Assembly: GCA_035995165.1 (NCBI GenBank)
Contig: DASYKU010000002.1
Span: 1 to 45,463, forward strand
Direction: 5' to 3'
Source: Mycobacteriales bacterium
Lineage (GTDB): Bacteria > Actinomycetota > Actinomycetes > Mycobacteriales > CADCTP01
DNA length: 45,463 nucleotides
Of the stretch, positions 7,696-16,430 are shown piece after piece. The position numbers were made by a program, and so were the translations under genes. The notes under the pieces were generated by a model, which was not told the origin of the DNA, did no database searches, and was given only the letters and a program-made list of their open reading frames with translations. The first letter of the stretch is position 1. Each line of letters starts with the position of its first letter.

Positions 7696-8700
7696 TCAGC
7701 TACCGAGGATCGCCGCGCTGACCAGGTAGACCAGCGCCGCCGCCACCGCCGCGGCCGGGATCGTCAGCACCCAGGCCGCCCCGATCGAGCGGGCCACGCC
7801 CCAGCGCACCGCGGACAGCCGCCGGGTCGCGCCGACGCCCATCACCGACGAGGTGATCACGTGCGTCGTCGACACCGGCACCGCGTACACGTACGCGGTG
7901 CCCAGCATGACCGCGCTCGCCACCGACTGCGCGGTCACGCCGTCGGCCGGGGTGAGGTGGATGATCCGCCGGCCCATCGTCCGCATGATCCGCCAGCCGC
8001 CCGAGTACGTCCCCGCGCTGATCGCCGCGGCCGAGGCCAGGATCACCCACAGCGGCACGTGGAACGCGGTCAGGTGCCCGGAGGTGACCAGCGCCAGCGT
8101 GATCACGCCCATCGTCTTCTGCGCGTCCTGCGTACCGTGCCCGAAGGCCATCAGGGCGGCCGAGCCGATCTGCGCGTGCCGGAAGCCGCGGTTGGCCCGG
8201 TGCGGGTTCGCCTTCCGGAACGCCCACAGCACCCCGACCATGGCCAGGTACGCCAGCCCGAAGCCGACCAGCGGCGAGAGCACCATCGGGACCACGACCT
8301 TGTCGAACACCCCGGACCACTGCACCGACCGGGACGCGGCGATGGCCGCGCCGACGAGCCCGCCGATCAGCGCGTGCGAGGACGAGGACGGCAGCCCGAA
8401 GTACCAGGTGAGCAGGTTCCAGGTGATCGCGCCGAGAAGGGCCGAGAAGACCACGACCAGGCCGCCGCGGCCGACCGGGGCGGCGATGATCCCGGCGCCG
8501 ACGGTGGCGGCGACCTTCGTCGAGACCAGCGCGCCGACGACGTTCATGATCGCGGCCAGGCCGAGCGCCGCCCGCGGGGTCAGCGCCTTGGTCGAGATCG
8601 TGGTGGCGATGGCGTTGGCCGAGTCGTGGAAGCCGTTGGTGTAGTCGAAGGCCAGCGCCACCAGGATGATGATGATCAGTCCGAGCGTCGCCGTGGACAC
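7696..8700 (-). CDS. pit: low-affinity inorganic phosphate transporter, Pit family
   Basis: A 334-residue PiT (PHO-4) integral membrane protein that moves metal-phosphate into the cell with protons. The N-terminal signature FDYTNGFHDSANAIATTISTKAL (about 18-40) and the repeat GHGTQDAQKTMGVI (about 200) are the two inverted PiT family motifs; WYFGLPSSSSHALIGGL is also diagnostic. About 9-10 hydrophobic segments. GTG 8700 follows directly on the TGA of the DUF47 gene, the usual two-gene arrangement. Confidence 0.93.
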   Translation of the reverse strand: MSTATLGLIIIILVALAFDYTNGFHDSANAIATTISTKALTPRAALGLAAIMNVVGALVSTKVAATVGAGIIAAPVGRGGLVVVFSALLGAITWNLLTWYFGLPSSSSHALIGGLVGAAIAASRSVQWSGVFDKVVVPMVLSPLVGFGLAYLAMVGVLWAFRKANPHRANRGFRHAQIGSAALMAFGHGTQDAQKTMGVITLALVTSGHLTAFHVPLWVILASAAAISAGTYSGGWRIMRTMGRRIIHLTPADGVTAQSVASAVMLGTAYVYAVPVSTTHVITSSVMGVGATRRLSAVRWGVARSIGAAWVLTIPAAAVAAALVYLVSAAILGS

Positions 8701-9318
8701 TCAGCTCTCCTTCACGGCGATCGTCTCGACGACGTTCGCCACGTGCTCGAACGCGTCGGCGGCATCCTCCAGGTCGTCCGCCACCTGCTTGAGCTTGAGC
8801 ACGGTCAGGGCCTCGTACGTGCCGGAGAACAGCCGGGACAGCAGCCCCCGGTAGACCTGGTCGGCCTCGTTCTCCAGCCGGTTGACCTCGATCCAGTACG
8901 GCGCGAGGTCCTTCATCGACACCAGCCGGCCCATCGCGTCGGCCGTGCACCGGGCCGCCCGCTGCAGCAGCTCGACCTGCCGCCCCATCTCCACCGGCAG
9001 CGTCTCCAGCTCGCTGAGCACGGCGAAGTCGGCCGCCGCCTCGATCGAGTCCATGACGTCGTCCAGCAGCGTGGCGAGCTGGTAGATGTCCTCGCGGTCG
9101 AACGGCGTGACGAAGGTGGAGTTCAGCGCGTGGATGACCCGGTGGGTCACCATGTCCCCGGCGTGCTCGTGGTCGCGCAGCTGCTTCGCGAGCCGCTCGC
9201 GGTTGGAGCTCACGTGTACGAACTCGGCCATCAGGTCGGTCGCCGACACGAGGTTCTGGGCCGCTTCGACGAACATCGGGAAGAAGCGGTCATCACGCGG
9301 CGTGATGTGAAAGGGCAC
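8701..9318 (-). CDS. DUF47/PhoU-like protein (Pit partner)
   Basis: A 205-residue all-helical PhoU-related protein of the DUF47 (TIGR00153-like) family. It contains ITPRDDRFFPMFVEAAQNLV at the start, DHEHAGDMVTHRVIHALNSTFVTPFDREDIYQLATLLDDVMDSIE in the middle and LENEADQVYRGLLSRLF later. The E/D-rich bundles are the proposed metal-binding surface. GTG 9318 is preferred because GGAG lies five bases upstream and the length fits; a TTG at 9351 would add 11 residues. It is co-transcribed with pit and probably modulates it. Confidence 0.9.
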   Translation of the reverse strand: MPFHITPRDDRFFPMFVEAAQNLVSATDLMAEFVHVSSNRERLAKQLRDHEHAGDMVTHRVIHALNSTFVTPFDREDIYQLATLLDDVMDSIEAAADFAVLSELETLPVEMGRQVELLQRAARCTADAMGRLVSMKDLAPYWIEVNRLENEADQVYRGLLSRLFSGTYEALTVLKLKQVADDLEDAADAFEHVANVVETIAVKES

Positions 9319-9378
9319 GTGTACTCCAGGTGTACGGCGGACGAACCGCAACGTACCCGGAGGAGTGCTCGAACTCCC

Positions 9379-10020
9379 TTAGTTGGTCTGCGACTGCGTC
9401 GGCACGCTGATGTGCTCCCACGCGGCGCGGGCACCGGCCTCGCCGACCCGGGTGACCATGATCAGCGTCATGATCCCGCCGATCAGCGTGAGCACGATGC
9501 CGACCAGCATCACCGGCATCTGCCAGCCCGGGCTGCCTTCCTCGGCCAGCTCCAGCCGGCCGGCGAAACCGGACCGCCGCGCCGGCACGACCCCGGACCG
9601 ACCGGTGGGAGAGCCGCCACCGGCCGGTACGGACACCCGGTGGCTGCCGGCCGCCCGGCGCCGGTTCCACGCGATCGCCGGCGGCACCAGCACCAGCAGG
9701 AGGCCGACGACCAGCAGGTAGACCCACTTCGGCAAGGCCTCGGCCAGGTCCATGTGCTTCTGCATGAGGCCGGCCTCGGTGACGTCGGCCGGGCCGAACC
9801 GGGCGCTCTGCCGGTTGTAGAGGTCCTGGCCGCTCGACACGGTGATCGGGACCAGGATCGCCGACACGATCGCGAGCAGACCCACGAGCACCCCGTACCG
9901 CCGGCGGGCCCAGGGCCAGAGCGCCACGATGATGCCGGTGATCGCGGCGGTCGGCAGCGCGACCACAGTCAAGTGCACGATCAGGGCGTGCGTCGGCAGG
10001 CCATGGAAAGTGTTCAGCAC
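9379..10020 (-). CDS. DUF2231 family membrane protein
   Basis: A 213-residue membrane protein. It opens with FHGLPTHALIVHLTVVALPTAAIT, the DUF2231 hallmark with conserved His residues, followed by helices around 44-62 and 98-116. A hydrophilic Gly/Ser/Arg linker (about 120-160) and a last hydrophobic segment MPVMLVGIVLTLIGGIMTLIMV complete it. Function is unknown; members often lie near redox and metal genes. It stands between the phosphate genes and the sigma factor on the same strand, with about 50 bases to each neighbour. Confidence 0.8.
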   Translation of the reverse strand: MLNTFHGLPTHALIVHLTVVALPTAAITGIIVALWPWARRRYGVLVGLLAIVSAILVPITVSSGQDLYNRQSARFGPADVTEAGLMQKHMDLAEALPKWVYLLVVGLLLVLVPPAIAWNRRRAAGSHRVSVPAGGGSPTGRSGVVPARRSGFAGRLELAEEGSPGWQMPVMLVGIVLTLIGGIMTLIMVTRVGEAGARAAWEHISVPTQSQTN

Positions 10021-10069: not shown

Positions 10070-10609
10070 TCAGCCTGTCCGGCCAGGCCGTTCGGACAGG
10101 CCGGCGACCAGGTCCTCGCGGGCGCGGGCGACCCGGGACCGGATCGTGCCGATCGGCACGCCGCAGACCTCGGCCGCCTCCGGGTAGCTGAGCCCGACCA
10201 GCTGGGTCAGCACGAACGCGTCGCGCCGGTCCGGGTGCAGCGCGCCGACCTGCCGGCGCAGCGCGACCCCGTCGGACAGGTCGCCGCCGGTGGGCGGGTC
10301 GGGCACGGTCGCGCCCGGGTCGATGCGGGGCCGCCGGCGGCGCTCGCGCACGGCGTCGGCGCAGGTCCGCCGGGCGATCGAGAGCAGCCAGGTCTTCGCC
10401 GCGGACCGCCCCTCGAACGAGGGCAGCGACCGGAACGCCCGCAGGTAGGCCTCCTGGGCCAGGTCCTGGGTCTCGCCGTGGTCGCCGAGGTGCGCGCACA
10501 GCCGCCACACGTCGGCCTGGGTGGACCGGACGAACCGGGCCGCGGCGGCCTGATCACCCTCACGGGCGGCCAGGGCCGCCTCGGTGATCTCATCGACCGG
10601 AATGTCCAC
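10070..10609 (-). CDS. ECF-type RNA polymerase sigma factor
   Basis: A 179-residue group IV sigma factor. Region 2 runs from about 13 to 82 (TQADVWRLCAHLGD, DLAQEAYLRAFRSLPSFEG, TWLLSIARRTCADAVR). Region 4 covers about 118-170 (HPDRRDAFVLTQLVGLSYPEAAEVCGVPIGTIRSRVARARED). There is no long C-terminal extension. GTG 10609 is the start used; it lies only 30 bases from the divergent membrane protein with a zinc-finger-like anti-sigma motif, which heads the copper cluster. The gene order resembles loci of SigC-like factors, but orthology cannot be proven by eye. Control of the copper genes is inference. Confidence 0.88.
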   Translation of the reverse strand: MDIPVDEITEAALAAREGDQAAAARFVRSTQADVWRLCAHLGDHGETQDLAQEAYLRAFRSLPSFEGRSAAKTWLLSIARRTCADAVRERRRRPRIDPGATVPDPPTGGDLSDGVALRRQVGALHPDRRDAFVLTQLVGLSYPEAAEVCGVPIGTIRSRVARAREDLVAGLSERPGRTG

Positions 10610-10639
10610 GGGAACCGTTCGCCTCTCCGAACCGACTGG

Positions 10640-11395
10640 ATGTACGTGGGCTGTGACCAGTATCGCGAAGCGCTCTCCGCCGAGCTCGACGGGGAGGCCC
10701 CTGGCGTCGCCGAGGAGGCGCTCTCCGCGCACCTTAGCGGCTGTTCCGACTGCCGTGGGTGGTTCGGGCGGGCTGCCCGGATCACCCGGTTGGCGCGGAT
10801 GGCGCCGGCCGAGCCGACCCCGGACCTGGTCCCGGCGGTGCTCGCCGCGCTGCCGGCGCTGACCGCGACCCGGCGCAAGGTGCTGGCCGTGTCGCGGGCC
10901 GCGCTGATCGTGGTCGCCTTCCTGCAGGCGCTGCTGGCCTGGTCCGGCGCGCTGACCGGGCAGGACGACATGGTCGCCGGGCACGTCGCGCGCGAGGTCG
11001 GGGCCTGGAACCTGGCCCTGGCCGTCGCGTTCCTCACCGTCGCCACCCGGCCCCGGGCCGCGGACGCGTTGCTGGCCCCGCTCGGGGTGTTCGTCGCGGT
11101 GGTCACGGTCTCGGCCGCCTCCGACGCGGCCGGGGGCGATCTCGCCCTCGGCCGGCTGTTCGCCCACCTGCTGGTCGCCACCGGGTTCGGTCTGCTGGTC
11201 ACGGTCGGCCGGGCCGCGCCGCCGCAGCCGGGCACCCCGGAGCGGACCCGGCCCCGCGGGCTGCCCTCCTCGTCGGACCGCGAACCCGTCCCGGGTCCGG
11301 TGCCGGATCTGTTGCCCGCCCTCAAGCTGGCCCCCTCGACCCCCCTGCTTAGGGCTGGCGATGCGGTGACTCTGGAGACAGGATCAGCAGCGTGA
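10640..11395 (+). CDS. zf-HC2 membrane protein, probable anti-sigma factor
   Basis: A 251-residue protein. N-terminal residues about 1-45 carry a zinc anti-sigma-type motif: CDQYREALSAELDGE and then HLSGCSDCRGW, i.e. His-x3-Cys-x2-Cys. Four hydrophobic segments follow (about 88-106, 127-145, 150-167 and 176-195), and the C-terminal tail is Pro-rich and hydrophilic. ATG 10640 is used; GTG 10646 is an alternative, and no clear ribosome site is visible, so the mRNA could be nearly leaderless. Its TGA overlaps the CopCD GTG (GTGA), making it the first gene of the copper operon. It presumably holds the divergent ECF sigma factor inactive at the membrane. Confidence 0.75.
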   Translation: MYVGCDQYREALSAELDGEAPGVAEEALSAHLSGCSDCRGWFGRAARITRLARMAPAEPTPDLVPAVLAALPALTATRRKVLAVSRAALIVVAFLQALLAWSGALTGQDDMVAGHVAREVGAWNLALAVAFLTVATRPRAADALLAPLGVFVAVVTVSAASDAAGGDLALGRLFAHLLVATGFGLLVTVGRAAPPQPGTPERTRPRGLPSSSDREPVPGPVPDLLPALKLAPSTPLLRAGDAVTLETGSAA

Positions 11396-13152
11396 CTGCC
11401 CTTTTAGCCGATTCCCACAGCCCGAAGGCCCGCAAGCGGCTCTTCGCCGTACTGGCCCTGCTCGGTGCCTGGGCCGTGCTCGCGATCAGCGGCGCGACCC
11501 CCGCGCTCGCGCACGCGACCGTGGCCGGCAGCGATCCCGCGGAGAGCTCCCGCCTGACCGCGGTCCCGGCCAAGGTCACGATGACCTTCTCCGAGGACGT
11601 CACGCTGGGCGGCGGCTACCTCAAGGTGGTCGACAACAAGGGCAACACGGTCAGCGACGGCAACGCGTCGATCAACAACCGCGACATCACCGTCAAGGTG
11701 AAGCCCGGGCTCGGGGACGGCAGCTACATCGTCAGCTACCGGATCACCTCGGCCGACTCGCACCCCATCGACGGGGCGTACGCGTTCGTGGTCGGGGACG
11801 GCCCGCTGGTCGAGGCGACCGGCTCGGTCTCCGGCGGCGGCACCGACGGGGTGGTCACCAAGGTCTTCGACGTCGCGCGCTTCATCGGCTTCCTGGGCAT
11901 CGTGCTGTTCGGCGGCCTGGCCTTCGTCGTGCTCTGCTGGCCCGCCGGGCGTACGGACCCGAGGGCCCGCAAGCTGATCTGGTACGGCTGGTGGGGCGCC
12001 ACGATCGGCGCCGTCCTCGGCCTGGTCCTCCAGGGGCCGTACGCGGCCGGCACCGGGTTGCTCGACCTGCTCAACTCGAGCCTGCTCAAGACCACCCTCG
12101 CCACCACGTACGGGCGGATGCTGTGCGGGCGGCTGGTGCTGCTCGGCGCGCTGGCCGTGCTCACCGTCCGGATGCTGCGGGAGCCCAGCCGGACCGCGGA
12201 GAAGTCCCGGGCCCGGGACGAGGACCTGGCCGCGATCTGCGGTCTCGGCGTGCTCGCGACGTACGGCGGGGTCGGCCACGCGGCGGCCGGCAGCGCGCCC
12301 ACCCTGGCGCTGCTGTCGGACACCAGCCACCTGGCCGCGGCGAGCGTCTGGATCGGCGGCCTGATCATCCTGGCCGCCTGCCTGCTGCCGCGGCGGCGGA
12401 CCGCGGAGCTGGCCGAGGCCCTGCCCCGGTATTCGAAGCTGGCGCTGGGCTGCGTGGCCGTGCTGACGATCACCGGCACCTACCAGGCCTGGCGGGAGGT
12501 CTGGCCGATCCCGGCGCTGTGGTCCACCAGCTACGGGCAGCTGCTGCTGGCCAAGATCATCGGCTTCCTGCTGATCGTCGCGGTGGCGTACTTCAGCCGC
12601 CAGGCCGTCAACCGGCGGTACGTGCGGCCGGTGGTGCATGCGCTGTCGGTGAAGGAGGAGGACGGCGCCGTCACCACGCTGCCGGAGCCCGAGGACCAGA
12701 GCGACGACGGCCGGATGGTGCGCCGGCTGCGCGCCTCGGTCGGAATCGAGCTGGTCCTGGGCATCGTCGTGCTGGCCGTCGCCGCGGTGCTGGTCTCCCA
12801 GGCCCCGGCCCGGACCACGTACGTCAAGCCGGTCCAGCAGACGGTCCGGCTCGCCTCCGGCGGCACCGCCCAGGTCACGCTGACCCCGGCCAAGGTCGGC
12901 CAGAACACGATGACGATCAGCGTCCTCGACACCGCCGGCAAGCCGGTGAACGCGCAGGCCGTCACCGCCACCGAGGCGCTGCCCTCCGCGCAGTACGGCC
13001 CACTGCCGATCCAGATGCAGAAGACCGGCACCGGGATCTACTCCTCCTCCGCGGTCGCGCTGACCAAGACCGGGGACTGGGAGATAGTCATCCGCGTGCA
13101 GATGTCCGAGTTCGATCGCGACGTGGCCCAGGTGAACGTGAAGGTCACCTAG
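11392..13152 (+). CDS. CopC-CopD fusion copper transport/resistance protein
   Basis: A 586-residue fusion. A signal peptide ends at ATPALA, leaving His41 as the mature N-terminus, the expected Cu(II) ligand of CopC. The CopC beta-barrel (41-135) also has Asp122/His124 (ADSHPIDGAY). The CopD-like part has about eight membrane helices (about 155-410), with VGHAAAGSAPTLALLSDTSHLAAASVWIGGL as its conserved core. A further helix at about 452-470 leads to an extracytoplasmic C-terminal domain (about 475-586) rich in beta strand. CopC binds copper outside; CopD is thought to pass it across the membrane. Translationally coupled to the anti-sigma candidate. Confidence 0.9.
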   Translation: MTALLADSHSPKARKRLFAVLALLGAWAVLAISGATPALAHATVAGSDPAESSRLTAVPAKVTMTFSEDVTLGGGYLKVVDNKGNTVSDGNASINNRDITVKVKPGLGDGSYIVSYRITSADSHPIDGAYAFVVGDGPLVEATGSVSGGGTDGVVTKVFDVARFIGFLGIVLFGGLAFVVLCWPAGRTDPRARKLIWYGWWGATIGAVLGLVLQGPYAAGTGLLDLLNSSLLKTTLATTYGRMLCGRLVLLGALAVLTVRMLREPSRTAEKSRARDEDLAAICGLGVLATYGGVGHAAAGSAPTLALLSDTSHLAAASVWIGGLIILAACLLPRRRTAELAEALPRYSKLALGCVAVLTITGTYQAWREVWPIPALWSTSYGQLLLAKIIGFLLIVAVAYFSRQAVNRRYVRPVVHALSVKEEDGAVTTLPEPEDQSDDGRMVRRLRASVGIELVLGIVVLAVAAVLVSQAPARTTYVKPVQQTVRLASGGTAQVTLTPAKVGQNTMTISVLDTAGKPVNAQAVTATEALPSAQYGPLPIQMQKTGTGIYSSSAVALTKTGDWEIVIRVQMSEFDRDVAQVNVKVT

Positions 13153-13178
13153 CTCCCACTTCCGTACCGGAATCTCAC

Positions 13179-13194
13179 CACCCGTCATCGGGTG
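13179..13194. other. small hairpin between copCD and ycnI
   Basis: CACCCG (13179-13184), TCAT loop, CGGGTG (13189-13194). The six-pair hairpin lies in the 70-base gap and lacks a T tract. It may be a processing or weak attenuation element, or chance. Confidence 0.3.
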
Positions 13195-13222
13195 ACCTCA
13201 CACCGTCCCGAAAGGACAGATC

Positions 13223-13978
13223 GTGTCCCGACCTGTGTTCAGGCTGCTCACCGTGGCCGCCGTGGCCGCCACCGCCGTCGGCCTGACCGCCCTGCCGGCC
13301 CTCGCCCACGTCACGGTCACCTCGCCCGGGGCGACCCAGGGCGGCTTCGGCGTGCTCACCTTCCGGATGCCCAACGAGGTCGACAAGGCCAACGCGACCG
13401 AGCTGAAGGTCCAGCTGCCGGCGGACGCGCCGCTGGCGTCGGTGGCGGTGCAGCCGATCGCGGGCTGGACGTACACGGTCACCACCGCGAAGCTGGCGAC
13501 CCCGCTGACCGACGACGACGGCAACAAGGTCACCGACTACCCGTCGGTCGTGGACTGGAAGGCGACCGCCGGCGGTATCAAGCCGGGGGAGTACCAGGAC
13601 TTCAATTTGTCCGTCGGCCCGCTGCCCAAGGCCGACCAGATGGTGTTCAAGGCCATCCAGAACTACAGCGACGGCACCACCGTGTCCTGGATCGAGCAGG
13701 CGGCGGCCGGCAGCACCGAGGAGCCCGAGCACCCGGCGCCGACGCTGACGCTGGCCGCGGCCGGGACCACGTCCACGTCGACTCCCGCCACCAGCACCCC
13801 GGCCGCGGCCGCGTCCGGTGACGACGCCAGCAAGAGCTCGGTCACCGGCGCGTACGTCGTCGGCGGCATCGGCCTGGTCGCCGGCCTCGCCGCGCTGGCG
13901 CTGGCTGCGACCGGTAGGAGGCGGCGGACTACCGTGGACGGGACCCGCAACCCCGTCTCCACGTCCACCGGAGCATAG
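13223..13978 (+). CDS. ycnI: YcnI-like copper-binding membrane protein (DUF1775)
   Basis: A 251-residue secreted, membrane-anchored protein. The signal peptide ends at LPALA, so His29 becomes the mature N-terminus of AHVTVTSPGATQGGFGVLTFRMPNE, the copper-binding edge of YcnI. The DUF1775 core (about 29-170) contains PIAGWTYTV, VDWKATAGGIKPGEYQDFNLSVGPLP and WIEQ. It is followed by a Thr/Ala/Ser-rich linker and a C-terminal helix (about 212-230) with an RRRR stop-transfer. GTG 13223 has AAAGGAC upstream. YcnI probably hands copper to neighbouring chaperones. Confidence 0.9.
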   Translation: MSRPVFRLLTVAAVAATAVGLTALPALAHVTVTSPGATQGGFGVLTFRMPNEVDKANATELKVQLPADAPLASVAVQPIAGWTYTVTTAKLATPLTDDDGNKVTDYPSVVDWKATAGGIKPGEYQDFNLSVGPLPKADQMVFKAIQNYSDGTTVSWIEQAAAGSTEEPEHPAPTLTLAAAGTTSTSTPATSTPAAAASGDDASKSSVTGAYVVGGIGLVAGLAALALAATGRRRRTTVDGTRNPVSTSTGA

Positions 13979-13988
13979 AGCCAGCCCA

Positions 13989-14588
13989 GTGAGCCTCCCC
14001 CCGACACCGACCCCGGCGCCGCCCGAGCAGCGGCCGCGCCGCCGGTCCGGGCTGCCGATGGGGTTCGTGGCGGCCGCGGTGGCCGTGCTCCTCGGGGTCG
14101 GCGGCCTCGTCGCCGGCGCCCGGGACCAGGCCGGGGAGACCGCGGCCGCGCCGGGCGGGGCCACCGCGGCCCCGCTCACCGTCAACGGCACCACGGTCGG
14201 GGACCTGACCATCGGGCAGGCGTACATCCGGCAGCCGGCCTCGCCGGACGTGGCCGCGGCGTACCTGACCGTGCAGAACAACGGCTCGACCGCGGACACG
14301 CTGAGCTCGGCGTACTGCGGGGCGGCGACGACGACCACCGTGCACGCCGACGCGGCCGCGATGGTCGCCGGTGCGGACGCGAAGTCCACGCCGCTGCAGG
14401 TGCCGGCCAACGCGACGGTCAGCCTGACGCCGGCCAAGGGCCACATCATGCTGGACAAGCTCACCGGCACCCTGCGGGCCGGGGACACGGTGAGCCTGCT
14501 GCTGCACTTCGACAAGGCCGGTCAGGTCCTGATCGACGTGCCGGTCATCTCGATCACCGCACCCGCGCCGGGAGGAGCCACATCGTGA
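13989..14588 (+). CDS. periplasmic copper chaperone PCu(A)C-like protein
   Basis: A 199-residue protein with a Pro-rich N-terminus, one membrane segment (about 24-43, MGFVAAAVAVLLGVGGLVAGA) and an extracytoplasmic PCu(A)C (DUF461) domain. The methionine/histidine site is recognisable: TTVHADAAAM, then VPANATVSLTPAKGHIMLDKL, giving the H...M...HxM pattern. This family delivers Cu(I) to the CuA centre of cytochrome oxidase with Sco proteins, and a Sco gene follows directly with a 4-base overlap (GTGA). GTG 13989 starts ten bases after ycnI. Confidence 0.85.
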   Translation: MSLPPTPTPAPPEQRPRRRSGLPMGFVAAAVAVLLGVGGLVAGARDQAGETAAAPGGATAAPLTVNGTTVGDLTIGQAYIRQPASPDVAAAYLTVQNNGSTADTLSSAYCGAATTTTVHADAAAMVAGADAKSTPLQVPANATVSLTPAKGHIMLDKLTGTLRAGDTVSLLLHFDKAGQVLIDVPVISITAPAPGGATS

Positions 14589-15217
14589 GGAAGCAGCTGG
14601 CAGCAGCTGCGGTGGTCGGACTGATCGCGTTGACCGGCTGCTCGACGTCGTCGATGGCGGCGTCCTCCGGTCCGGCGATCTCGGCCGAGCCGACCCAGGC
14701 CGGGACGTACCGGGGGCTGGAGCTGCAGCCGGCCCAGCCCCGGCCGACGTTCACGCTGACCGACACCACCGGGAAGTCGTACGACTTCGCGGCCCGGACA
14801 CGGGGGATGCCGACCCTGCTGTTCTTCGGCTACACGCACTGCCCGGACGTCTGCCCGACCACGATGGCCGACACCGCGGCCGCGCTGCGGGGCACGGCCG
14901 AGCCGCTGCGCAGCAAGGTCCAGGTCGTCTTCGTCACCACCGACCCGGCCCGCGACACCGGCAAGGTCCTCGCCGCCTGGCTGCGCAACTTCGACCCCGA
15001 CCTGCCGCTGAGGTTCGTCGGGCTGACCGGGACGCAGGCCCAGGTCGAGGCCGCCCAGGCCGCGGCCAAGGTCCAGGTCGCGAGCGAGAACGGGCAGACC
15101 CACTCGGCCGAGCAGCTGCTCTACGGCCCGGACGACTACGCCCGGGTCGCGTACGTGGCCGGCAGCAGCCCGGAGGACCTGCGGCACGACCTGCCGATCG
15201 TGGCGAGGGAGGGCTAG
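14585..15217 (+). CDS. Sco1/SenC family copper/thiol lipoprotein
   Basis: A 210-residue lipoprotein with lipobox LTGC (Cys19) and a thioredoxin-fold Sco domain. Copper ligands are all present: Cys86 and Cys90 in FFGYTHCPDVCP and His173 in NGQTHSAEQLLY. The VVFVTTDPARDT strand is typical. Sco proteins load copper into CuA of cytochrome c oxidase and reduce its cysteines. GTG 14585 overlaps the PCu(A)C stop. It ends four bases before the MauE-DsbA fusion. Confidence 0.92.
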   Translation: MRKQLAAAAVVGLIALTGCSTSSMAASSGPAISAEPTQAGTYRGLELQPAQPRPTFTLTDTTGKSYDFAARTRGMPTLLFFGYTHCPDVCPTTMADTAAALRGTAEPLRSKVQVVFVTTDPARDTGKVLAAWLRNFDPDLPLRFVGLTGTQAQVEAAQAAAKVQVASENGQTHSAEQLLYGPDDYARVAYVAGSSPEDLRHDLPIVAREG

Positions 15218-15221
15218 GCCG

Positions 15222-16430
15222 GTGCGGGTCTGGATCGCGACCGTGCTGCGGATCGCGCTGGCCGCGGTCTGGGCCGTCGTGGCGGTGGGCCGGCTCGGGG
15301 ACCCGGCGGCGTCGGTACGGGCGGTCCGGGCGTACCAGCTGCTGCCGGACGTGCTCGAGCGCGGCGTCGGCTACGGGCTGCCGTTCCTGGCGCTCGCGCT
15401 GGCCCTGCTCCTGCTGCTGGGGCTGGCGACCCGGGTCGCGGCGGTGGTCTCGGCCGCGGTGTTCGTGTTGTTCCTGGTCGCGCTCAGCTCGGTCGTCGCC
15501 CGCGGGCTGCGGATCGGATGCGGCTGCTTCGGCGGCGGTGGCACGGTGCCGGCCGGGCAGTCGACCGGCTATCCGGTCGAGATCGTCGTCGGCGTCGTGC
15601 TGCTGCTGGCCGCGGTGGCGCTGGTGCTGTGGCCGGCGACCCGGTTCGCGCTGGACGACCGGATCCGCGGGTGGGCCGCGGCCGCGCTGCCGGAGGTCCG
15701 GACCGGGCCGCGGCGGACCGCGGAGGCGCGTCGCCGGCAGGCCGAGCTGGCCCGCGCCCGCGACGCCCGGGCCCAGCGCCGGGTGACGCGGGCGGGCGTG
15801 CTCGCCGGCGTACTGCTCGTGCTCGTCACCGGGGCCGGGATCGGCGTACAGGTGGCCCGCGTGTCCGGGGACGACGGCCCGTCGCCGCAGGCGGTCAGCG
15901 TCGCCGACGGCGTCCAGTTCGGCCGGGACGGCGCCCGCGTCACCATCGAGGTGTACGAGGACACGCAGTGCAAGGTCTGCGTGACCTTCGAGCAGCAGAC
16001 CGACCCGCAGCTGCAGAGCTGGATGAAGTCGAGCACGGCCCGGGTGAAGTACTACGTGGTCGCCTTCCAGGACTCCGGGTCGACCACGAAGTACTCCTCC
16101 CGCGGGGCGGCGGCGCTCTACTGCGCGGCCGACGCCGGGGTGTTCCAGCAGTACCACTCGCTGGTCTTCGGCCAGCAGCCGACCGCGGCCGGGCTCAGCG
16201 ACGACCAGCTCGTCGCGCTCGGGCCGCAGGCCGGGATCCCGGCCGGGGCCGCGCAGAACACGTTCTCCGACTGCGTGACGTCGAAGAAGTACGCGGACTT
16301 CGTCTCGAAGATCAGCGACTCGGCGGACCAGGGCGGGATCCTCGCGGTGCCGACGGTCCTGGTCGACGGGCACCCGGTCTCCGACGTCTCCCTCGCCGGC
16401 GTCACCGCCGCCGTCGACAGCGCGCTCTGA
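15222..16430 (+). CDS. MauE/DoxX-like membrane domain fused to DsbA-like thioredoxin domain
   Basis: A 402-residue fusion. Residues 1-140 form a four-helix MauE/DoxX-like domain with the redox pair C100-x-C102 (IGCGCFGGGG). Residues 145-190 are an Arg/Ala-rich, probably helical cytoplasmic linker. A further helix at about 191-212 leads to an extracytoplasmic DsbA/Thioredoxin_4 domain (about 225-402) with C250KVC253 (EDTQCKVCVTFE) and a cis-Pro loop AVPTVLVDG. Such a pair would pass electrons or oxidising power across the membrane to thiols of secreted proteins, here plausibly the Sco and CuA cysteines. The two parts are more often separate genes. Confidence 0.82.
   Translation: MRVWIATVLRIALAAVWAVVAVGRLGDPAASVRAVRAYQLLPDVLERGVGYGLPFLALALALLLLLGLATRVAAVVSAAVFVLFLVALSSVVARGLRIGCGCFGGGGTVPAGQSTGYPVEIVVGVVLLLAAVALVLWPATRFALDDRIRGWAAAALPEVRTGPRRTAEARRRQAELARARDARAQRRVTRAGVLAGVLLVLVTGAGIGVQVARVSGDDGPSPQAVSVADGVQFGRDGARVTIEVYEDTQCKVCVTFEQQTDPQLQSWMKSSTARVKYYVVAFQDSGSTTKYSSRGAAALYCAADAGVFQQYHSLVFGQQPTAAGLSDDQLVALGPQAGIPAGAAQNTFSDCVTSKKYADFVSKISDSADQGGILAVPTVLVDGHPVSDVSLAGVTAAVDSAL

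Follow-up and report, generated by a model that had tools for sequence, protein, structure and literature searches.

How is an extracytoplasmic function (ECF) sigma factor held in check when its candidate anti-sigma gene lies at the head of a copper operon, and what does that placement do for copper supply to respiration? The question is raised by positions 10070..16430 of a 45,463-nt stretch of DNA from a Mycobacteriales bacterium (contig DASYKU010000002.1 of assembly GCA_035995165.1, forward strand); "the window" below means this full stretch. At the locus, a sigma factor gene is transcribed away from an operon that begins with the gene of a zf-HC2 protein, a predicted membrane protein, and continues with genes of copper import and delivery. 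We consider it likely that the two form a SigC/anti-SigC pair whose brake sits inside the copper operon under control of the sigma factor, an arrangement that would place respiratory copper supply under negative feedback. By sequence, this reading draws on gene content, homology, the pairing of the two genes, their fusions and the placement of a promoter. Section 2.8 of PMC7924339 (2021) treats the sensing of copper deficiency and the missing anti-SigC as open questions; the locus and its relatives supply a candidate SigC partner, a promoter, a start codon and five residues, in bacteria besides the pathogen Mycobacterium tuberculosis.

Classification of the sigma factor

The sigma gene (10070..10609, minus strand, GTG start) encodes a protein of 179 aa with Sigma70 regions 2 and 4 only (Pfam Sigma70_r2, 56 bits, and r4_2, 55 bits), the domain content of an ECF factor. 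Its closest solved homologue in a Protein Data Bank search was M. tuberculosis SigC (2o7g, 88 bits; next match 73). Among NCBIfam models, the unnamed PRK12535 came first (177 bits) and the SigC model NF007231 second (158.5 bits), both below their cut-offs; the SigC equivalog label, with a cut-off of 219 bits, was rejected for the window protein. To judge from these matches, the factor is SigC-like (ECF36-like). M. tuberculosis SigC (ECF36) has a role in copper acquisition under scarcity, and its targets include the nonribosomal peptide synthase (nrp) operon (PMC7924339). According to section 2.8 of that paper, sigC of M. tuberculosis is monocistronic and no anti-SigC has been identified to date, whereas the window factor is paired with a membrane anti-sigma candidate that heads a copper operon. 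A literature search over portions of the published texts found no paper that names the zf-HC2 protein of this locus as an anti-SigC in a copper operon.

Pairing of the sigma factor and the zf-HC2 protein

The anti-sigma candidate is encoded on the plus strand (10646..11395, GTG start) and consists, in its 249 aa, of a C-H-C-C zinc-type domain, four predicted transmembrane (TM) helices and a tail. The two genes were surveyed in 150 genomes of the order, the draw for the zf-HC2 protein and that for the SigC-like factor (E <= 1e-25) being taken as the same genomes. The zf-HC2 protein was found in 93 genomes and the SigC-like factor in 91; both occurred in 89, the zf-HC2 protein alone in 4, the sigma factor alone in 2 and neither in 55 (6 discordant genomes in all; Fisher 1.5e-33, uncorrected for kinship). 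Some of these absences may be false, as only part of the first-look candidates was scored in both draws, and those of G133 (zf-HC2 draw) and G109 (sigma draw) follow from taking the draws as the same genomes.

Among the 89 genomes that carry both genes, the matched stretches lie within 1 kb of each other in 83, as divergent (63) or convergent (10) pairs, with the zf-HC2 gene ahead of the sigma gene (6) or behind it (4); the remaining pairs are 1-25 kb apart (5) or split over two contigs (1). The layout of the locus, presented as unusual in the preliminary description, is not odd within its family, given the 63 genomes with divergent genes within 1 kb. In all six cases with the zf-HC2 gene ahead, one reading frame of about 451-459 residues spans both genes (L061, L062, L063, L064, L066, L067). 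It is very improbable, in the light of this adjacency in four different arrangements and of the fusion of both genes in six genomes, that the zf-HC2 protein has no anti-sigma role towards the SigC-like factor and stands beside it by chance or through a shared operon history; chance adjacency was rejected on the 83 close pairs and the six one-frame fusions.

An alignment-based scan yielded at least 302 relatives of the zf-HC2 protein, the best 80 of which were taken as a named set; a scan of genome contigs with the single protein found no relative. A sigma gene lies within 1.2 kb in 69 of these 80 loci (60 divergent, 9 tandem). The set includes Modestobacter, Blastococcus, Geodermatophilus, Amycolatopsis, Saccharopolyspora, Nocardia and Plantactinospora, as well as metagenome-assembled genomes labelled Acidimicrobiaceae, Solirubrobacteraceae and Trebonia. 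Another 40 loci, hand-picked for spread, came from 39 of the 93 zf-HC2-positive genomes. Three loci (L092, L155, L167) duplicate G028, G014 and G119 and were dropped, except that they still figure in the 80 of the named set and in the promoter offset counts given below.

Pairing of SigC with an anti-sigma is not wholly new, since such fusions are in print: PMC8999054 describes an ECF36 factor of Mycolicibacter heraklionensis fused to an anti-sigma, with an N-terminal extension of 3-4 TM helices, and PMC7563442 a sigC-Rv0093c fusion with an anti-sigma signature in the M. avium complex. The one-frame fusions in six genomes resemble them. In the window, by contrast, the genes are separate and divergent and the anti-sigma candidate belongs to a copper operon; this wiring, together with a candidate sensor site described below, is what we regard as new.

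Domain structure and conserved residues of the zf-HC2 protein

The sole Pfam match of the window protein at E <= 0.001 is zf-HC2 (36.2 bits against a cut-off of 22.2), whereas the passage of PMC8999054 on the fusions names a DUF2275 domain. A profile of 55 relatives found RsiW at positions 13-74 (E 1.3e-6). The AlphaFold model (mean pLDDT 85.6) has N-terminal helices at 3-14, 23-32, 34-52 and 62-68, followed by four long helices at 74-104, 109-134, 138-162 and 168-190. The ligands of the zinc-type anti-sigma domain, C3, H29, C33 and C36, occur in 113 of 113 sequences, a count that leaves out L073, L159 and L168 (reading frame running into the next gene) and L043 and L050 (start unsure). With a helix bundle homologous to that of the solved class-I anti-sigma factor (ASDI) RsiW and linkage to one kind of ECF factor, the assignment of the zf-HC2 protein as an ASDI candidate is supported. 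The anti-sigma call of the preliminary description is supported in the same way, by the RsiW profile match, the occurrence of the zf-HC2 gene together with and next to a SigC-like gene, and the one-frame fusions.

As in the class-I pairs RsiW/SigW and RsrA/SigR, the anti-sigma domain combines an HxxxCxxC motif with an N-terminal Cys. RsiW has one TM helix plus an outer domain and RsrA is a soluble protein, whereas four TM helices are predicted in the window protein and carry conserved polar residues: Q94, E117 and H174 in 113 of 113 sequences, D160 in 112 and H113 in 111. That the protein acts like RsrA, as a cytoplasmic thiol/redox sensor through its C-H-C-C site, would agree with the invariance of that site, with a weak match to the RsrA model (NCBIfam TIGR03988, 20.7 bits) and with the last gene of the operon, a MauE-thioredoxin fusion; it is nevertheless improbable, the membrane part, which RsrA is not known to have, being equally conserved. 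Membership of the RsrA family was rejected on the model's cut-off of 62.5 bits.

Given a cytoplasmic anti-sigma domain, the model places Q94, H113, E117, D160 and H174 near the outer ends of the helices. Over the 113 relatives His+Met make up 18% of the first outer loop, but 5% of the proteins as a whole; in 109 of the relatives the loop holds at least two such residues. These outer residues and the His/Met-rich loop may be a copper site; the chief competing reading is a site for heme or quinone. No fold search yielded a usable relative for the membrane part: of 237 Foldseek matches, none reached E <= 0.001; the anti-sigma MucA (8z6g_C) was among the matches only at E 1.9. Structural alignment of the four-TM part had VKOR-like bundles among its best results (Z 9.5, 9.0, 8.8), tied with unrelated bundles. 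These bundles, the nearness of cydA to another gene with a sigma-C-type site (see below) and the mere 2 His/Met residues in the 17-residue loop of the window protein itself would suit a sensor of the state of respiration, be it quinone redox, heme a or oxidase assembly, rather than of copper, the copper genes being one output. We consider such a sensor doubtful: the His+Met content of the loop over the relatives is as expected of a copper ligand, and the recognisable targets are mostly copper genes.

Promoter and start codon

The preliminary description had proposed a motif search upstream of 10609/10640. It disclosed a sigma-C-type site at 10610-10638 heading the anti-sigma gene, with the -35 element GGGAAC at 10610..10615 and the -10 element CGACTG at 10633..10638 (both plus strand), the latter 7 bases ahead of GTG 10646. 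The pattern GGAAC-N15-19-CGAC was searched in the 150 bases that precede the called start at 118 loci (window included, duplicates out). It was present in 104 and stood at the start codon in 102, as GGAAC-N16-18-CGAC 6-8 bases ahead of the anti-sigma start; in 100 dinucleotide shuffles a site occurred at 1.2 loci on average and at no more than 4, and on the reverse strand at 5. For the 106 loci with an in-frame start (window and the three duplicates included), the distance from -10 hexamer to start codon was 7 bases in 90, 8 in 13, 6 in 2 and 4 in 1, and the -35/-10 spacer was 17 in 103 and 16 in 3. The -35 element of the relatives is mostly GGGAAC, and the commonest form of the -10 element ends in A (83% of 87); the window's CGACTG, which lacks this usual last base, is one base off the consensus CGACTA. 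The 14 loci without a site include the six fused genes, loci of uncertain start such as L165 (site present, start called elsewhere), and L147, L158 and L160 (GGGAAC kept, CGAC not).

Because ATG 10640 falls inside the conserved promoter, GTG 10646 is the most likely start codon of the zf-HC2 gene and yields the 249-aa protein. The sigma gene is on the opposite strand, as had been described; the gap between the two genes, previously put at 30 bases, becomes 36 bases between start codons. Since the -10 element lies so close to the start codon, the transcript of the anti-sigma/copper operon is probably leaderless.

The sigma-C consensus of Corynebacterium glutamicum (Toyoda and Inui 2016, as cited in PMC5483222) appears in the latter paper as GGAAAC / CGACT (introduction) and as GGGAACT / CGACTA (later text), and the conserved site agrees with the second version. 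The C. glutamicum system differs in that the passages of PMC5483222 on sigma-C describe it for aerobic-respiration defects and mention no anti-sigma. Among 102 sigma loci (those with fewer than 120 bases upstream left out), the site precedes the sigma gene in only three (L042, L076, L097), and in the nine tandem loci, too, it heads the anti-sigma gene. As a rule, then, the brake alone, and not the sigma gene, appears to be a sigma-C target, which fits with the statement in PMC7924339 that sigC of M. tuberculosis is not autoregulated. At five loci with fused zf-HC2/SigC genes (L061-L064, L067), no site stands in front of the fusion and a sigma-C-type site faces the opposite way; the gene that it faces in L061 looks PPE-like by eye.

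Copper genes and candidate regulon

Copper genes were surveyed with tblastn queries at 117 loci, in flanks of up to about 8 kb (less on some short contigs). CopCD, YcnI, PCuAC or Sco was found near the pair in 30 loci, a number that rises to 53 with CtaG and copper ATPase added; with the same queries, no copper genes were found near any of six other zf-HC2 loci of the window's own genome, used as controls. A copper-type P-type ATPase lies near 21 of the 117 loci.

In the own genome, the site placed at a start codon occurred 20 times, compared with 7 for a reversed control. One occurrence precedes CtaG (PF09678, 176 bits), where a GTG may serve as a leaderless start, and another lies about 70 bases ahead of the likely start of a second YcnI gene (PF07987, 159 bits). 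About 1.3 kb past this YcnI gene is cydA (L190:10456-11817; PF01654, 417 bits). Further genomes for these scans were hand-picked among zf-HC2 positives. Four of them gave 41 sites against 16 in reversed controls, with the zf-HC2 gene among the sites in all four and a MauE-like gene (by eye) in G112. In 16 others a strict pattern gave 16 sites and its reversed control none. Ten of the sites belong to the zf-HC2 gene and an eleventh lies a little upstream of that gene; CopC (where the reading frame is also open upstream), MauE and ScoE have one each, and the remaining 2 fall inside reading frames. In G046 (L255, family f15), a second SigC-like gene adjoins a gene of CopC that is preceded by a sigma-C-type site of the strict pattern.

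The ScoE gene behind a sigma-C-type site in G110 matched with 402 bits (E 1.9e-119), and beyond it are two open reading frames (ORFs), one small and one long, the latter NRPS-like by eye. ScoE makes isonitriles that bind copper, and the nrp operon makes a diisonitrile copper binder; ScoE and the NRPS-like ORF behind the site are consistent with the report of the nrp operon as a target of SigC, a likeness to the M. tuberculosis system. One promoter type links SigC-type factors with copper import by CopCD/YcnI, with the delivery of copper to the oxidase and with a ScoE gene. Sigma-C-type sites at CtaG, YcnI, CopC, MauE and ScoE are what the search before other copper genes, also proposed earlier, brought to light; with the promoter ahead of the anti-sigma/copper operon, they support the suggestion, made in the preliminary description, of ECF control of copper supply.

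In Bacillus subtilis, ycnKJI likewise combines CopC-CopD with YcnI as import parts, which serve heme-copper oxidases (PMC13344008), but there the operon is under the YcnK repressor and not a sigma/anti-sigma pair. A response to copper excess might be read from the Pfam names of CopC and CopD, which are those of resistance proteins, and from the P-type ATPase near some loci. We think it unlikely that the pair responds in this direction: M. tuberculosis SigC serves copper scarcity (PMC7924339), B. subtilis YcnJ/YcnI support growth under copper limitation according to PMC13344008, and sigma-C-type sites stand before CtaG and ScoE.

At L055, L056 and L057 (family f8), the zf-HC2 gene adjoins genes of a CbiM/CbiN/CbiO-like transporter (by eye), and a CtaG protein, confirmed by Pfam in L055, is encoded near it.

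Proposed circuit

In the SigC/anti-SigC circuit that we propose, the sigma gene would be made without sigma-C control, while the anti-sigma would be the first product of a copper-supply operon (CopCD import, YcnI, PCuAC, Sco, MauE-thioredoxin) with a sigma-C-type promoter. As long as the cell has copper to spare, the sigma factor would stay tethered to the membrane by the anti-sigma; a shortage of copper, or of the oxidase that depends on it, would lead the membrane part to release the sigma factor. Copper import and delivery would then be turned on together with more of the sigma factor's own brake, and this extra brake would shut the response once copper is back. Starvation as the direction of the response, the leaderless start, the release step and copper as the ligand are what we infer here.

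A more specific version, which we put forward tentatively and rate at slightly under an even chance, makes the four-helix part itself the copper sensor. Copper would be held by Q94, H113, E117, D160 and H174 with the His/Met-rich loop, and its loss would free SigC. Since the sigma-C promoter generally stands before the brake and not before the sigma gene, feedback would be purely negative, and the mRNA of the brake would be leaderless. The same family, as the Rv0093c-like part of the mycobacterial fusions, would then be the missing anti-SigC.

Several observations weigh against the proposed circuit. The only other genome of the same genus that was compared, G001, yielded neither a zf-HC2 nor a SigC-like gene, and copper genes lie near the pair in only 55 of 117 loci even with ScoE counted. 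Many of the 20 own-genome sites appear, by a crude codon-position measure, to be inside genes. Searched for irrespective of a start codon, GGGAACN16-18CGACNA was no more frequent in the own genome than its reversed form (11 occurrences against 13), and for that reason only start-codon-placed sites were used afterwards; this pattern misses the window's own site (CGACTG). The strict pattern found no site in 6 of the 16 zf-HC2-positive genomes. To these are added the poverty of the window's own outer loop in His and Met, noted above, and the conformational inhibition proposed for M. tuberculosis SigC in a review (PMC8999054).

Gene content of the operon and neighbouring genes

All genes named in the preliminary description (zf-HC2, CopC-CopD, YcnI, PCu(A)C, Sco, a thiol-redox fusion and the ECF factor) were recovered with Pfam. 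Behind the anti-sigma gene, the plus strand encodes a CopC-CopD fusion (11392..13152) with a FixH-like C-terminal part (23.9 bits), a YcnI-type DUF1775 protein (13223..13978, 154 bits), a PCu(A)C copper chaperone (13989..14588, PCuAC, 75 bits), a SCO1/SenC oxidase copper-delivery protein (14585..15217, SCO1, 99 bits) and a fusion of MauE with Thioredoxin_4 (15222..16430, 80 and 72 bits). The coupling of the zf-HC2 gene to copCD that had been described corresponds to a GTGA overlap (GTG 11392, TGA 11393-11395). An overlap of the same kind joins pcuAC and sco, and 4 bases separate sco from the MauE-thioredoxin gene. The gap of 70 bases between copCD and ycnI contains a perfect 6-bp hairpin, CACCCG-TCAT-CGGGTG (13179-13194), without a T run.

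Downstream of the sigma gene and on the same strand, positions 7696-10020 encode a DUF2231-like protein (25.9 bits, slightly below the cut-off), a PhoU-like DUF47 protein and a Pit-type phosphate transporter (Pfam). The position of DUF47 and Pit is kept in L044, L045, L047, L138, L163 and L166.

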